Shown: positions 3,425 through 15,767 of the stretch, in pieces
Numbering within the stretch: position 1 is the stretch's first letter
How the letters are laid out: each line of letters starts with the position of its first letter
Assembly (NCBI GenBank): GCA_000310025.1
Contig: FN649738.1
Location: 748,544 to 793,690, forward strand
From: Ectocarpus siliculosus
Taxonomy: Eukaryota; Sar; Phaeophyceae; Ectocarpales; Ectocarpaceae
Length of the DNA: 45,147 nucleotides
Direction: 5' to 3'
Position numbers and translations under genes: made by a program
Notes under the pieces: model-generated
Told to the model about the DNA's origin: nothing
Database searches by the model: none
The model's input: the letters and a program-made list of their open reading frames with translations, nothing else

Positions 3425-6400
3425 ATGGCTTCTTCTTCAGCAAATCAGGGGGAGGGAGGGCCCCAGATATTCATGGACATCAGAATCGGCGATCGAAAGG
3501 GTGAGAAAGCGGTTTACTTTTCGACCTTTTCACCCGCGGAATCTTGGTATCAATCCCCGCTCTGCTGCTTTATGCAACAGCGTACAGCAATCGTGCTGTG
3601 CTGTACAGCCTTCCATATTGTGCGAAGGGTTGGTTGGCCTATCCCCCGTACTCGTTGCTTCATCCACGCTCTTATTGCGACCCTGATTTCAAAAGAAGCT
3701 GCTCCAACAAGGCGGGGCACACCTACATATCTAGTAGCCCGGAAATCCTGTTCCCTACTCCCACGGCAGCTGCCCATACCCACAGTACAACAGCAGTACC
3801 CGCACACACCCATGGAACCTGACACACCAACAACTCCCACACTTGCCCCGGTAGACCTGCCATGGTCAGAATCAGCCAATGCATGCAGGTGCCGGTAACG
3901 AGGTACCCAACTTTTAATTTGGGGACACGACGTTGCTTTGACGTAAGGTATTGGCAACCAGGAGCTTAACTCTTGTACATACGCAGTCCCTCCGCTGCGC
4001 GCTCCATCACCTGGCCACTGGGGTGTCGATGTGCCGATACCCAAGCTCGACTGGGTTTCGGCTATTATCCCCTTTGCCGTGCCTGTAGCATCACCTGACT
4101 GCGACCTGTCTCTAGCCTGTAGCCCGGTGTGCTCGTTTGTCAGCCTCCCTTCCCTCCCCCCAATTTTGTGCGAGTGCCAAGTGCCGACGCTGCTTCAGTC
4201 GAACCTGGGGTTCGGTCGGCTCCTTTCTGTCGAGCTACGCCTCTCCCATACTCTTCAAGCAATAGACACGAGTTGACGTTGCCACCAGCTAACCCCAGAC
4301 AAACTACAGCTGGAGTATGACTGCATTCAATGTCTGCCGAGGTTGTAAGTTGGTCAACAGAGCACCGCGGTATTTGGTACCTACTGCGGTAGAGATTAGA
4401 TTTGATGTTGCACAGAGGAAGTGCTGATGGCGTCGATGGTTTTCATATGGGTGACAGTAGTCTCGAGGCGCCTGGGGACATACCCTGCCTGTCGACGATG
4501 CCGCTCGTTTACACGACGCCCCTCGTCACCCCTTCCTGCGTTATTTGGTGGCTGCTGCAGTTGGTCGAATGGTCTTCGAGCTGTACGCCAGCGTGGTGCC
4601 GCGAACCAGCGAGAACTTCCGCGCGCTGTGCACGGGGGAGCGGGGCGTCAGCAAGAAGACCAACCAACGGCTGCACTTCAAGGTTAGACGGAGCACGCGG
4701 GCGGAGTGAACTGAGCCCTCCCGTGCTGTCAACACACCTGATGTGGTCCGTTTTCTGATGACACGGCGGCAAACAAGCATTCAATGGATCGCCTGCGCGA
4801 GGAATTTGTTGTGTCTCTATGAAGTGGAGAGGTTTCATATCCCCAACCCTGCATAACCCAAACTCAACTCCGTACCCCCTACTATAACCGAGCTTACTAT
4901 TCTGGCAAAGGCGACTGCATTCAGCATGTGGTTCTATCTAACCACCCTCCTCTTTCCTCTCCAGGATAAGAACAACTCTGGTTTCGCGAGATAGCAACAC
5001 CCACATGTGCGCCCCATTCCAGCTGCGCCAACAACACAGCTACTACCGTGAACTCATTCGTCGTTGGTTCTGACGTTTCTTATCTCCGAAGGACTCGATC
5101 TTCCACCGCATCATCCCGGGTTTCATGGCCCAAGGAGGCGATTTCACGAGGGGGGACGGGACCGGGGGAGAATCAATCTACGGGGACAAGTTTGCCGACG
5201 AGAATTTCGTCCGGTGAGCCTGCAGCCCAACCAAACACGTGGCACGTTACGTACTTCTACAATCTTGGATGATGTGGCGCTGTAGGCGACCGGTAGCGTG
5301 CTTTGTTGACGCTGGCTTTGATGGATGGGGCGACTGCCGGTGTTAACAACAGCACTCGGTTGTTTGTGCGCGTGGTTGAGGCTGCACTGATCGGTACACG
5401 TGTGTAGGTGCGATGCAGGGATGGTCATGTGGGGCAATGGGTAAGTACAAGCAGAAAGCCTCGAGGGAGGGAGGGGGGGTGGGAGGGGCAGAGAGGTTGC
5501 CTCATCGGTAGTCAGCGAATACCCTCTTTCTTGTAGAGCGGAATGCGTTTCCACACGCCTACGATACACCTCGCCGCGTAGGAGGTGGGGGGGAGTGTAC
5601 AGTACCTCCGCCGAGTTCCTCCTTTTTTTTTTGTTTGGATGCACGTGCGTGCTGGCCGCAATTATCACAGCTCGCACGAGGGGCGAGGGCTGCTTTCGAT
5701 GGCCAACGCGGGGCCGCACACGAACGGGTCGCAGTTCTTCATCACCTTCGGCACAGCGCCACATCTCGATGGCCGGCACACCGTCTTCGGCAAGATAGTA
5801 GAGGGGATGGAGGTGAGTCGCGAACGCCACGTGAGGTCCCCTGACCTGAGAAACGTCAGGATCGCGTTGACAGGGTATATGTTGGCCTGTGGTGCACCGA
5901 CGGGACTGCGTGGTGGCCTGGGAGAGGCCGAGAGGGATCAATTTGCCTGCGATCTGGGAGCGAAACGACAACGTGACATGCTGTTGTGGAGTTACCCCGC
6001 GCTCCGGCTTGAATGGTGATGCTTTCACGTGCTCTACAACCCCACATCACACGACGGCAGTTTTTTATGTCTTGATGCTCCGTACGTGTCGGCACTACTT
6101 TCGTGTGTGTTTTCGTGAGTAGCGTCGACCGCGCTAACCGGCTGACCAATGAACAGACGCCAGTGCCAACGGGTTATGTGCGTGTGTGTGTGTGTGTGTG
6201 TGTGTTTTACAGCTATCCGTGCCTTTGGGGGGGTAAAGACGTCAGCACACCCTAACACCCCGTAGTCGTCTTCCTCGAACGATGAAAGAGACAGCAGTCG
6301 TAGCGTTTTGGCGTTACGGGTGTGCCGGGCATGCGTTGCCGCGTGACTAACTTTCTCGGTCGTCGCCCCTTGTTAACCGCCGCCGGGTTGTGTTTTTTTT

Positions 6401-7576
6401 CCTCGTGCATGACTCATATAGGTGCTGGACATTATGGAGAAGGTGTCCACAGGCGGGAACGACCGACCACGGCTGGCGGTCACGATCGATGACTGTGGAC
6501 AGGTGTGTTTCGTGATTTGTGACCATACCATACCATACCATGGTGCATCGTTACATGGCATGGTATCGTGTCGCGGCGGTTCCTCCTGTGGGAGCACGAT
6601 TTCGCAATGGTAGCTCGTAGTATGGTGTTGGTGCCATTGTTGGTGTTGTCGGTGGTGGCGATGGTGGTAGTGTTGGGACCATTGTTGTAGTTGTTGTTGT
6701 TGGTGGTGGTGGTAGTGTTCGTGTCACTCTGTTGTTGTTGGTGTTGTTCTGCAAGCCGGGGCCTCTTTCCCTCTTGCGTAGCTGGTTCTTCAGCCAATCA
6801 GAGGCTAAGACGCCAGATGAATCACCCCGACCGATCCTTGTCCCTTTACTAATGGATACAGAAACTACGAAGAAACGAGATATAAAAGGGCCACATAATC
6901 TTGCGATTGGGAGGGACAAGCGATGATAGTCTATGCTAAACCCAACGTAGTACCTGGGTCACCAGAATTTTCTCGGCAAGTTCCCCGGGCCGGTGCCGTC
7001 AGCTCCTCTCCCTGCCTTATGGCACCGTTGCATGCATGCATTTCGTGACGGCTTAGAGAAGGTCCCACGCGCTACATTTTTTTTTTTCGGTAGACGCGGC
7101 GTTGCCGGGTGTTGTGTTTCTTGCTTCCCGAGGGAGACTGGGCGTATCGCAGGGCAGGCAATGGTGGGCGAGCGAAAACAACGCTTTTTGTATGGATGGT
7201 CTTTTTTGTGTTCGTTGTGATATTTTATCAACGACGTTTTGCTGCGTAGAAACTTATTGTAATAATCCTACGTCTTCGGTCGTCCTTGGCAAAGCCCGGT
7301 CTTGTTTTTCGCGGGAGACTGGTTTTTTTACCCTCCCCCTCCCGATCAACGTTGGAGCGATTACATTTCAGTAGCTAAGGATGCGCCGGATTGTTGGAGA
7401 TGGGCGCACGTGTTGAACACTCTTGTCCCGTTCGTGACGCGATGCTTAGGTGGGAGAGGTGGTGGAAGATGACGAACAGGCGGGAGGGGTTTCCGGGCAA
7501 GTGGGACAGGCAGGGGCAGCGGGGGGGGAGGCTGACGCACGGCGGAGTACAGAAGAGGACGAATCGGTTGCCCAGA

Positions 7577-7607
<31 letters not shown>

Positions 7608-10600
7608 GGTGTTGGAGGAGCCAGACGAGGCGACACTGGGGAAGATGAGCAGTGTGGAGCAGCGCTTGTTCAAGATCCGTCTCAAGATGAACAAGGTGGG
7701 CGGTTACCCTGCATAGTTGTGGCCTTGGGCGGTTCCAAAATTTTGTGTCTCTTGTGCTGCTTGAAAATAAAGTCCTCTGCGGTGGTTTGCTAGGAGGGGT
7801 GTTCGGGGGATGGAAAACCAAAGCAGTTTGGGAGACCAAGCGTCATCTCAACACCAACAGATCGCCGTCGCCTGCTTTGAAGGAAGCATCTTGGCGTTTG
7901 GACCAGTCCTCTTTTTGTCCGTCTCAATGCAGGCCAGGCGAACACACAAGTCTCGGCCAGACTACGTATAACCAGTAAAGGCCAAAACCGCCTTGTGGTA
8001 TCACGTGCCAAGGTTCGGCATGAATCGAAGAATTGAACCAAGACAAGCTTTCGACGCTGCGGTATTGTCTTTGTTGTGCTTTTCACCATGCCCGTTCCGG
8101 TCTTTCCTCTTTACGGTCACAGGAACACTATTTATATTACCATCAACGGGGAACAACACAACACAGAGATCATGTGCATACGGAGACCCAGAAAAATCAG
8201 CACAAACGCTGCAATAGAGGGAAAACAGATTATATTCAGAGTAGTTATCGCTTGTGGGCTGCGTATTGACGAAGCTGGCTTAGGTGTTGCTGTCTAGCGT
8301 CATGTTGCTTGGAAATTGCGCCACGCCGTCGTCCATGATAAACATAAGCATCAAGAATGTTTGTAATGCGCCGCAGGGGAGACGGGCGAATAAGAAGGCG
8401 GTGAAGGACGAGTACAATCGGCTCAGCGACCCGGGATACGCGGCCAAGATGCGCACGAAGGAAAAAGAAGAGGTGCGGTGGCCAAGGCGGGGTGCTTAGC
8501 TCGATCGATACCTGTCTCGTTTTTGTAGACGCGTCTTTTTGCTGAGTTTTTCTTTTTTTTTCTCGGTCGTTTCGTCAAGAGGTGAGTTGCGGCGTGTTTG
8601 TGTCTTGGTTAGGGGGTGATTGCGTTAAGTCGTGTTGTTTGAGGTGTGGTGCGGGGTGTTTTTCTTCACGCCATCCTGGTAAGGAGGCTTCGGTTGGTTG
8701 TATTCTTCGCATTAATATCGGTAGCGGTCTACGCAAGAAAAGCGAAAGAGATGTCGAAGGCGGTCGAATAGTTGTTATCCCGCTAGAGACCGGCGTGCTT
8801 TCAGCGGGCAGTCGGTTAGCTGTGCAAGGAAAACTGACACGTGCAGGCTTCGCCCCGACGTTGCCCTTCTCTTTCTCATAACACCCCGCAGGCGAAGAAG
8901 AGATGGGAAGCGGAGATGAAAGAGAGGGGTTTGTCGAAAGATGAGGCGTTTATGATGGAGACTGCACAGTCGGCGGATATCACCGCGCAGCAGAACAACA
9001 AGAAAGAGAAACACAAGGCCGCCTTCGGTGAGTCTTCCTGCTGAGGATTTTTGGTTCTTTCCCGCTCTTTCTATTCACCCGCAAGTTATGCTTTAATATG
9101 CGCTCCGTTTATTACCCCGCAACGAGTTCTCTTTTGCGGCCCTGCTTATTCCCCCGCCAGAATTAGACGTTTTCCTCTATTCCCCCGCAAGGAATTCGTT
9201 CTTGTCCGCCCCGTCAATCCCCCCGGTGGAAGAAATCTCCCTCAATTTGTCGGCGTCGGATTTTCTTGGAAGTATCAGGCATAGGGTTTTGTGGTGTGTT
9301 TTGGTTCACGAGCTTTGCGTACTATTTTTTGGTTTGGCTCATGCTTTATTTCGCGTTGCCACCACGGACCTCCGTTTCCCGCTGGAAATTTCGTGTGGTA
9401 TTGGACGGCAGGGTGGAATGTGTTCAACCAAGACGCGCTCTTCAAGGGCTACAAGAAGCGGCTGGATAAATTGCCCAAGGCCAAGGCTGGCTCAGAATCG
9501 GCTCGCATGGTGTGTGAACAGACGTTGCGTAGATTCGTCGATGGAGCATGCGTTCCATTTGCACCGCGGAGTTTTCGTCATCATATACGACGGACCGTTG
9601 TATTGCGTGTCTTGCGATCTCGCATGTCGGTGCCTCGAAAGTAGGCACACCTTCCGAGTACTGCTGCACCGGCGATGTGGCTGGTCGATAGCTTCGTTGT
9701 TCCTCCGAAGCGATGCGGGTGTTTTTCTATGTGTATTCTGCGGGGTCCCTCGACTTTGAGCTGGGAGGTATGTTTCCCATGTGTGTTCTGAGGGATGCCT
9801 CCATTTTGAGCTGGGAGGTACTGTTAAACGACTACCGCACCCGCTGCGTAGTCGGGGCCTCGACAGCAGTCGTTGTCGTGATGTTGCTGCTGAAGTTGGA
9901 AGGCTCTGCCGAAATCAAGCATCGTCTTCGAAAAAGCGTAGGCTTGTTTTCTCTCCTCTCCTTTCGAGCCATGTGACACGATTCCGTTTACGCATACCGC
10001 TGTTGGGATGCACTTTTAGGAAAGTATTCAAGGGCCGTGTGGTCAAAGGGCCGTGTGCTTACGGCCCCCGTATAGCAGTGGCCCCGCATGAGTGGTCCGC
10101 AGCACACACACACACCCTTTCCCGCCATGGCAGAAAGTGCCTCGTGAAAGTCCGCAGAATTTTCAACAGTGCCTCCCCTCCCCCCCCCGCCTCCGGGTGA
10201 TGACGCTGTGCAGGAGGACACGGCCGAGTATGGCACGAGGGATGACGCAGATTCTAAGGGGATGCAACGCGTGGTGGACGAGCTTGTGGAGAAGGTACGG
10301 TATGGCTACTAACAGACGACTTTGAATTTTTGTGTTTCGTTCCGAATTATGCGCCACGGGTCTCTGCGGAGCAAATTTGCTCGGTGTTCTCATGTCCGTA
10401 ACCGGGGCTTTGCGTTTGTGTTGCGACGATGTCTCTCGTATGGTATGATTTCCAGCTTGCGGCGCGCGCGTGCGCTCGTGCATGTTTATGTTGGCGCAAG
10501 GCGTTTTTCGAAACAATGCTGGGAGAGGCTGGTGTGGACGTCCATATTCATGTTTGCGAGTATCAAGAATTCCCCAGTGTTCTTCTCCCTGCCATTACCA

Positions 10601-11008
10601 TTTCTTGCGAGAAGATCAAATCAACTGCAGTACTAATGTCGAACCAGCCTATTCGGACTTTCCGTTGATCGGCCTCGTTGCCGGAGGATCATGGCACAGG
10701 CAAGCGCTGGCGTATGCTGCACCTCTCACACGAAAACACATCATTGATGACTGATTTTATTTTCCCATATTTTTGTCTCGCCTTGTTTTTTTCGTTTTTT
10801 CCGGTTTTTCCGGGTTTTTTTTTCGGCTGGCGCAACGAAACAGGGGAAACGGAAAGAGGCGTTCAGCCGACGCAGGTCAGAGCACAGCGCGACGGACATC
10901 GACTACATCAACGACAGGAACAAGCACTTCAACAAGAAGATCAAGCGCGCCTACGACAAGTACACGGTGGAGATCCGCCAGAACCTCGAGAGAGGCACCG
11001 CGCTGTGA
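3425..11008 (+). CDS. Cyclophilin peptidyl-prolyl isomerase fused to splicing factor SYF2
   Basis: Eleven exons join in phase: 3425-3500, 4561-4682, 5092-5213, 5671-5812, 6422-6502, 7450-7695, 8377-8472, 8892-9027, 9412-9509, 10214-10294 and 10844-11008, giving 1365 nt or 454 residues plus TGA. Residues 1-181 form a full cyclophilin domain: [36 protein letters not shown] (catalytic Arg and the MxQGGDF core), [19 protein letters not shown] and [11 protein letters not shown]. The usual active-site Trp is His (APHLDGRH). Residues 182-245 are an acidic linker with a run of ten Glu. From about residue 250 the chain matches SYF2: [35 protein letters not shown], then [16 protein letters not shown] and QNLERGTAL at the end. 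Cyclophilins isomerise X-Pro bonds; SYF2 belongs to the NTC-associated part of the spliceosome. A nuclear splicing role is inferred. No internal stop or second start context suggests two genes. Confidence 0.93.
6182..6205. repeat. (GT)n microsatellite in an intron
   Basis: About twelve uninterrupted GT units lie in the fourth intron of the cyclophilin-SYF2 gene, well away from the exon borders. It is a simple repeat and a likely length polymorphism. Confidence 0.9.
6606..6728. repeat. TTG/GTG-rich degenerate trinucleotide tract
   Basis: A pyrimidine-poor run of GTT, GTG and GGT triplets with interruptions fills this part of the fifth intron of the cyclophilin-SYF2 gene. A short CCATA repeat precedes it at about 6523-6541. 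The reverse strand reads as long Asn/Thr-rich open frames, which are artefacts of the repeat. Confidence 0.7.
9731..9820. repeat. Two-copy imperfect tandem repeat, period about 50
   Basis: Two 40-base units at 9731-9770 and 9781-9820 share the ending TTTGAGCTGGGAGGTA and a GTGT.TTCTG start, with scattered differences between. They lie in the ninth intron of the cyclophilin-SYF2 gene and have no coding sense. Confidence 0.75.
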
Positions 11009-13111: not shown

Positions 13112-15767
13112 TTAACTGCTGTCCTCTCCGCCGCCTTCTACACGTCTGTAGGTGTCCACGAACTCTACCCTATCCAGGCCCGGAGGAAACACAACCCCGG
13201 CCTCCATGTTACGGTCGAAGTCGCTCCCCAGCTTCAACGTCGTCAGCGATTCGGGCCAAACTACGTTGCAGATGGGGTTGTTGAATTCCTCGCCGAACAC
13301 TAGACAGCGCACGCTGTGGGGCCACGACACTTGCTCGATCTCCTGGTTGAAACACTTCCCGAAGCGGCAATCCAGCAGGCCGTCGGGAAGCCTTATCCCG
13401 GCCAGCGGCTTGTTGAAGCTATCCCCAAACGTCAGCTTCTTGAGCGATGCGGGCCAGACCGCAGCGGCTACCGGCTGATCAAACTGCACGCCGAAGTAAA
13501 TCTCCTCCAGCCCCGGCGGAAAATCGACGCCCTCCACGGCACGGTTGAACTCCTCGCCGAACACCAGCCTCGTAAGTCCACTCGGCAAAACGACATCAAG
13601 GAACGGACGGTTGAAGGCGAACCCTAGCTCAAGCGTCTCCAAATCTTCAGGAAAGCCGGCAACGGCGATGCTTTGGTCGAAGCAAGCCCCGAACTTGACC
13701 TTTCTCAGGGCCGGAGGCCATTCAACTCCCTCAACGTTTTGGTTGAACCCGCGACCGAACGATATCTGCGCGCGCGTGAGCATGTGTGTGACGGACGGCA
13801 ACGAAGAAGGCAAGATTCACGAGCACAACAGCGATGGGGAGGATGAGGTTAAGGGACTACCACACACACAATGGTACCTTCACGAGTGCGGTTCAGGTTT
13901 GGGTACCGCGGGGAGTGATGACGGTCAGGATGCAGTTTGCGTCGCTCAAAACCATTTGCTGTACAGGCCCGGACACGGACACGAACGCCCGATCGGCACC
14001 TCCCCCCTTGCGCGCGTTCCAGACTTTTTCGTGAGGTGCCCCCCCGCCCCGCCATGAGTTGAAAAATCTTGGGATCACCCTACCCCCCCACCCCCCCCCA
14101 CCCCGCACCTCCCTGCGTTCTTCTCTCGCAGCCGCCGCATTTTTGGGCTACGGTCAAATCTGTAGCCGCAGGTACACCACATAGTAATTGCTCTTGAGCC
14201 CTATGGTGGTGACTATCGACAACCGTAGCGGGCGGCCTCTCACCTCTTCCATCCCCCGAGGCCACTCCACGTCTTCGACAGGCAAGTTGTAGCAGTCCCC
14301 TAGGGACAGATGCTTGAGCGTGGCCGGCCACTTCTTTGCGGCGGTTCGGATGGACCGGTTGAAGAAAAACCCGAAAGTCAGACGAGCCAGCCGCTGCGGC
14401 CATTGGATGCCTTCAAGAGGCTGGTTGAAGTCCCTCCCCAGGGCAAGGGTCGTGAGAGTGTCCGGGAAGCGTACTCCGGCCAGGGGGCGGTCAAACCAGC
14501 TCCCGAACGTGAGGACCTGCGTGCGTAGGTTGCCCCCCAAGGCAGCACAATCATTGCAGGGAGGCTGTAGTTGGGAAAGTCGCTTTGCGCCCCCTCCCTT
14601 GTCGGTGGTCTGTTTCGAGCACACTGCCCAAACGTTCAAGCTAAGAAGGTGGTACACTACAGTACTGCTGCGGGATTCTCCTGGCTGTCCAGTTTCGCCC
14701 CCGAAGTGTACAAAACATCGCGTGTGTACTAAAGTAGGTCCTTCCTTTCGGCCCTTGCGGAATCACTAGGCTCTACGCCATCGGTAATTTCTCCAATACC
14801 ACGGGACGGCAGTGTCCCTACGGAATGATGCATACGGCTTTGCCTCCTACCCCACCCCACTCATTCCTCCTTTTCGTACCTCTAGCTCCGGAGGCCACTG
14901 TACGCCTAGAACCGGCTGATTGAAGTTACAGCCGAAGGTGAGCTTCTTGAGCGACTGCGGCCACGTTACGTCGTCGATCGTCCTGTTAAACCTATCGGAT
15001 AAAAACATAATGGCGCCACCACGTATTGTAGCAGCCGGGGTCAGTTTCACACACCGGCTTCTGCTGTGGCAAGAAACACAGCACTTTGCGTCTTTCGTGT
15101 GTATACGTATGCCGCAATTGATGGAGTCAGCGCACCCCCGTGCGGTCGTTTTCTTAACATTTTCGCCATTTAATACTTGCATCGAACCCCTGTGCGATGA
15201 CTCCGGACCGTGCGGACCCCGAACGGGGTTCTATTCTTCCATCTACTGCTGTACAAGGATATCTACATGTACTTTGCCCAACCACCAAATACGCAACTCC
15301 CACCATCCCAATTGCACGCACCTCCGCCAAAATACTATCGAACTCAGGGTCGGGGGCCAGGGCACCCCTTTCAGGTCTCCGCAAAACTCCGTCCCAAGCA
15401 CAAGCCCGACCAACTCGACCGGCAGCGCCCAGCCAGGCTTGAGGTCGAACTCCGACCGATCGTACAGCACGCGGACAACGCGGGGCAAGATAATGCTGCG
15501 GCTAACTCTGCCGTGGCCGCCACCCGCGAACTTGTCTTGGTACACCCTCCTCGGAGTCTTGCGAGCTATCCTCAGCCGGAAGTTCGCGACCTCGCGGCAG
15601 CTTCGGAGCGTCTCCACAGATGCCACCTGCAAGGATATCGTCCGCGCGACCCATCCGGAAGCGATGACTACCCGTAGAGCTCCCAGTGTTGTCGCCGCGG
15701 TTCCTCCTGCAGTATCGGCAGCAGTACTATCCTGCCCATCTTCAACACGTGGTACACCAGAAGCCAT
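13112..15767 (-). CDS. FNxP-type leucine-rich-repeat solenoid protein
   Basis: Four minus-strand exons join in phase: 15767-15322, 14991-14880, 14516-14244 and 13765-13112, giving 494 residues and TAA. ATG 15767 is the first in an open frame. Residues 1 to about 100 are unassigned and start with a Gly/Ala/Thr-rich stretch. From about residue 105 to the end run some 17 units of 22-23 residues with the pattern FN(Q/R)P(L/V)..V.WP..L..L.FG; clear examples are FNQPVLGVQWPPELEVLTFG and FNRAVEGVDFPPGLEEIYFG. This is the FNIP/FNxP class of leucine-rich repeat, expected to form a curved protein-binding solenoid. There is no signal peptide, membrane segment or catalytic domain, so it is probably a cytosolic or nuclear binding protein of unknown partner. 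Introns 2 and 3 both fall at the same place in the repeat. Confidence 0.87.

Follow-up and report, generated by a model that had tools for sequence, protein, structure and literature searches.

A cyclophilin-SYF2 fusion gene predicted in the brown alga Ectocarpus siliculosus

We found that a gene in a 45,147-nt stretch of the Ectocarpus siliculosus genome (assembly GCA_000310025.1, FN649738.1, positions 748,544-793,690 of the forward strand; the whole stretch is referred to as the window) joins a cyclophilin domain and an SYF2 domain in one predicted polypeptide. This protein belongs to the Cyp-SYF2 family, which is already known, and what is new is its occurrence in a brown alga. As the sole SYF2 found here, it is very probably an NTC-related component of the catalytic spliceosome in which a flexible, acidic linker of some 65 residues attaches an N-terminal cyclophilin that may act as an isomerase or a proline-binder.

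Gene structure and domain organization

The fusion gene, at positions 3425-11008 of the plus strand, was rebuilt from the sequence and has 11 exons, as follows:

3425..3500, plus strand, exon 1: start codon; N-terminus of the cyclophilin domain
4561..4682, plus strand, exon 2: cyclophilin
5092..5213, plus strand, exon 3: cyclophilin, with the equivalents of CypA Arg55, Phe60, Met61 and Gln63
5671..5812, plus strand, exon 4: cyclophilin, with the equivalents of CypA Ala101, Phe113, Leu122 and His126; His replaces Trp121
6422..6502, plus strand, exon 5: C-terminal end of the cyclophilin domain (..DDCGQ)
7450..7695, plus strand, exon 6: Gly/Ala-rich and then Glu-rich linker; start of the SYF2-homologous region
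8377..8472, plus strand, exon 7: SYF2-homologous region
8892..9027, plus strand, exon 8: SYF2
9412..9509, plus strand, exon 9: SYF2
10214..10294, plus strand, exon 10: SYF2
10844..11008, plus strand, exon 11: conserved SYF2 C-terminus; stop codon

All 10 introns have GT..AG borders and consistent phases, and the joined frame of 454 aa runs from the ATG at 3425 to a single stop codon ending at 11008, with no internal stops. A Pfam search of this protein (E values up to 0.001) identified Pro_isomerase (PF00160) at residues 16-180 (profile positions 1-158 of 159, E value 1e-47) and SYF2 (PF08231) at residues 316-449 (profile positions 13-154 of 154, E value 2.1e-22), whereas residues 181-315 had no match and no third family was detected anywhere in the protein at that threshold. 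The original prediction, made from the letters of the window, of 11 exons with GT..AG borders, matching phases, one ATG and one stop, linking a cyclophilin domain to SYF2 through a Glu-rich linker, was thus reproduced, with both Pfam domains lying in one spliced frame. The predicted protein has the layout of the Cyp-SYF2 proteins, namely an N-terminal cyclophilin, SYF2 near the C-terminus and a middle region with no recognised domain; the search of the whole protein found no RRM, so that the arrangement characteristic of PPIE, an RRM N-terminal to the cyclophilin, is absent.

Two introns contain short repeats: a 45-base GT-rich unit is present in two diverged copies at 6625-6719 (intron 5), and a 50-base unit, also in two diverged copies, at 9729-9825 (intron 9). 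Elsewhere in the window, the minus strand at 13115-13813 has an open frame of 233 residues that contains seven FNIP repeats (PF05725, E value 4.1e-46), and FNIP-like repeats are also visible in the minus-strand frames at 14154-14657 and 14847-15182.

Alignment showed that the fused cyclophilin retains the CypA residues at eight of the nine positions that we take to form the active site, the exception being Trp121, replaced by His. A change of Trp121 to His reduces cyclosporin binding more than catalysis. Against PDB sequences, the domain scored 215.7 bits with cyclophilin 40, 198.6 with NKTR, 195.7 with PPIA (common constructs) and 188.9 with PPIE, chains of PPIA and PPIE being among its matches, and PPIH and PPIG likewise outscored PPIE. 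Its identity is 56.5% to PPIE and 43.1% to PPIL1, and it has an inserted loop that is absent from PPIE. With this degree of identity, the additional loop and the higher scores of other cyclophilins, similarity gives no support for the fused cyclophilin having been derived from PPIE. The cyclophilin of the Cyp-SYF2 subfamily has been assigned to the ABH subtype (cd01926) (PMC2713222).

Relatives of the fusion and the question of one gene or two

Searched as a whole against the PDB, the protein was most similar to chain M of entry 8xi2, a Chlamydomonas reinhardtii sequence annotated as 'PPIase cyclophilin-type domain-containing protein', which matched the cyclophilin half at 194.5 bits and the SYF2 half at 99.0 bits, in the same order. 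Like the E. siliculosus protein, 8xi2_M has an N-terminal cyclophilin, a long middle and a C-terminal SYF2 ending in NLERGTAL, but it is 563 aa long rather than 454, its middle region differs in sequence, and it keeps Trp121 where the algal protein described here has His. The SYF2 half alone scored 99.7 bits with 8xi2_M and 65.3 bits with human SYF2. The code 8XI2 appears in a paper on the Chlamydomonas C* spliceosome (PMC11833078), which places Syf2 among the NTR proteins (29 proteins in this C*), and since 8xi2_M is the sole 8xi2 chain among the six PDB sequences matched by the SYF2 half, we infer that chain M is the Syf2 of that paper. The terms "PPIase" and "cyclophilin" have 0 occurrences in the text of that paper, and its section on model building does not say whether the chain M cyclophilin is visible in the map.

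This homologue bears on whether the two halves belong to one gene. Two genes lying head to tail might have been joined artificially across intron 5, which is 947 bases long, and a short SYF2 could begin at Met247, which lies in exon 6. We consider such an artefact very improbable, because the acidic linker is in frame and shares exon 6 (7450-7695) with the beginning of the SYF2-homologous stretch, and because the last three bases of the exon 6 acceptor are a TAG in the reading frame of the linker, meaning that the linker frame cannot be entered from upstream without splicing. The predicted splicing of exon 5 onto exon 6 is based on the open frame, the splice borders and the occurrence of both halves in the same order in 8xi2_M; the last of these, a homologous single polypeptide, comes from outside the gene and is the strongest argument for one gene. 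Expression as one protein is thus the probable outcome, and a short SYF2 made from Met247 by way of a second promoter is possible.

The architecture itself, which the original prediction had implied to be novel, was published as early as 2009 (PMC2713222; also PMC3143110). A subfamily of apicomplexan cyclophilins was described in which the cyclophilin stands right at the N-terminus and SYF2 lies close to the C-terminus, and the same architecture was noted in Tetrahymena, Paramecium and Ostreococcus (PMC2713222). The members listed are TgCyp66.2, PfCyp80.9, PyCyp74, BbCyp57.3 and CmCyp48.8, of which PfCyp80.9 was called aberrant and CmCyp48.8 was said to have an incomplete SYF2 domain, and no Cyp-SYF2 was reported from C. 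hominis (PMC2713222). Compared by description, these proteins share with that of E. siliculosus the N-terminal cyclophilin and the SYF2 near the C-terminus, their middle being poorly conserved; their predicted masses range from 48.8 to 80.9 kDa, and TgCyp66.2 has six exons as against the 11 found here (PMC2713222). The Tetrahymena fusion is CSY1 (EAR98967), and by description CSY1 and its Paramecium orthologue represent the same fusion as that in E. siliculosus (PMC3143110). Members in P. falciparum and P. vivax are also mentioned elsewhere (PMC11357558). According to the abstract of a P. falciparum study in which eight were expressed, isomerase activity was seen only in PfCYP19A and PfCYP19B among the purified proteins, and the abstract does not state whether the eight included the SYF2 type. 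The titles and abstract openings found describe no stramenopile Cyp-SYF2 fusion, most subscription papers lying outside that search; a study of 21 oomycetes names no SYF2 partner of cyclophilin in the parts covered, 23 further partner domains being unlisted there.

The origin of the fusion was compared using Chlamydomonas and human sequences, and the two halves gave different indications. The SYF2 half favours 8xi2_M, but the cyclophilin identities do not: in simple identity, the fused cyclophilin of Chlamydomonas shares 63.0% with human PPIE and 59.5% with the E. siliculosus fused cyclophilin. Searches with the SYF2 half of viral and of genome contig collections gave 7 and 54 pattern matches, respectively, with no confirmed relatives; these collections are not of eukaryote genomes and are uninformative on distribution.

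SYF2, PPIL1 and PPIE in the genome

The fusion gene is the only SYF2 that we found in the genome (189,456,909 bases, 492 contigs), although assembly gaps could hide another. The PF08231 profile had one match, inside the fusion gene, and all six matches of the SYF2 half (E values up to 10) were exons of this gene, so that a check proposed with the original prediction, for a separate SYF2 gene, revealed none in the 189-Mb assembly. Cyclophilins, by comparison, are numerous, with 40 exon-level matches. The EsV-1-7 motif (PF19114) is hugely expanded across many contigs (C30, C45 and C191 are examples), with 880 first-look candidates and matches in all 150 of those scored. The EsV-1-7 family is expanded in brown algae.

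One conceivable reason for a cyclophilin on SYF2 is that it replaces PPIL1, a protein in contact with SYF2 in the human spliceosome, SYF2 being listed among the PPIL1 interactors in human structures (PMC6315705). We regard this as hardly credible, since a PPIL1-like exon with 67% identity is present on contig C24 and the proteins listed for the Chlamydomonas C* include both PPIL1 and Syf2 (PMC11833078); in addition, the fused domain is 43.1% identical to PPIL1.

A more specific form of explanation is that the fused cyclophilin stands in for that of PPIE, PPIE having kept just its RRM half while the isomerase is supplied on SYF2. Human PPIE, an RRM joined to a cyclophilin (PMC6315705), had 51 matches in the genome, and its RRM half matched two exons on contig C4 at 54-56% identity. 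These exons belong to a predicted PPIE-like gene of four exons (C4:1095168-1097921, exon choice by hand) encoding 135 aa, in which an RRM and a PPIE-like VWSADDW motif (VWSADDWYK) are followed by a stop codon. The top PDB matches of the predicted protein are PPIE RRMs (1.6e-37 and 9.9e-37), aligned through the VWSADDW motif, and in Pfam it matched RRM models only. No cyclophilin match was found anywhere on C4 in genome searches with the cyclophilin profile, the fused domain and PPIE. Reports from other lineages point the same way, PPIE-like cyclophilins being described as missing from all apicomplexan genomes studied (PMC2713222) and PPIE being listed among the factors present in human but not in Chlamydomonas C* (PMC11833078).

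Several observations weigh against this replacement, which we consider possible but rather unlikely. RRM exons on C8 (36% identity) and C15 (35%) outscored either C4 exon alone, so that identity and the motif are the grounds for assigning the C4 gene to PPIE; third among the PDB matches of the C4 protein is a chain of a poly(A)-binding protein (1.6e-35, a whole-sequence value), and SF3B4 matched the C4 protein at 3.7e-28. The fused domain, with 56.5% identity to PPIE and an extra loop, scores higher against cyclophilin 40, NKTR, PPIA, PPIH and PPIG. A chain in another structure, 9l5r_Ci (153 residues, 'putative cyclophilin protein'), matches the PPIE RRM and is too short for both domains, but it shares its entry with a 326-residue SYF2, 9l5r_B, which is not among the best 60 of the 84 PDB matches of the whole fusion protein, where a chain with two halves would be expected; a PPIE without its cyclophilin therefore need not accompany the fusion. 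Moreover, a PPIE that is unmodelled in one structure is not thereby absent from the organism. Some plant RRM cyclophilins have been tabulated beside human CYP33 (PPIE) (PMC7641896).

The 40 cyclophilin matches and 130 RRM matches in the genome were also compared by eye for position, and no RRM match was located within 17 kb upstream of any cyclophilin match, bearing in mind that RRMs split by introns can escape a profile search (only one of the two C4 RRM exons is among the 130). Two cyclophilin/RRM pairs are less than 20 kb apart. On C36 (324925-330351, minus strand), cyclophilin exons have a weak RRM match (E value 0.012) about 3.2 kb downstream, which is the order of PPIL4. On C13 (734196-734279, plus strand), a weak, short RRM match (E value 0.05, 28 positions) precedes the fusion gene by about 17.7 kb, which places it outside the window.

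Proposed role in the spliceosome

In human, SYF2 and PPIE are two proteins, each homologous to one half of the E. siliculosus fusion. In yeast, Syf2 has a stabilising effect on U2/U6 helix II, and in the human C complex SYF2 is bound to helix II in its rearranged form (PMC8682746). By analogy, the SYF2 half of the fusion protein would bind close to U2/U6 helix II, where SYF2 is placed in other organisms, and the linker of about 65 residues would let the cyclophilin reach the surrounding surface, where it may act as an active isomerase or as a binder of proline peptides on neighbouring spliceosome proteins. Presence of the protein in the spliceosome is suggested by the homologous 8xi2 chain. 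A parallel with separate proteins is known in rice, in which OsSYF2 is bound by OsCYP20-2 (PMC7483694). The interpretation offered with the original prediction, that a covalent link tethers a proline isomerase to the catalytic spliceosome, therefore holds as to the fusion and is plausible as to the tether, which gains strength from the homologue in a solved spliceosome entry; it fails in its implied novelty.

Finding the fusion in E. siliculosus adds a brown alga to the alveolates and green algae already known to have it, a distribution that fits either an old fusion or repeated fusion. It is conceivable, though we think it improbable, that in several lineages of eukaryotes the function of the PPIE-type isomerase has been relocated within the spliceosome, with PPIE lost or kept as its RRM half only and a different cyclophilin placed covalently on SYF2. 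If this were true, one catalytic need would be served by two different tethers, and comparing these would allow the role of isomerases in the spliceosome to be tested. The RRM-only form of PPIE predicted elsewhere in this genome offers a concrete and testable idea of why SYF2 may carry a cyclophilin.
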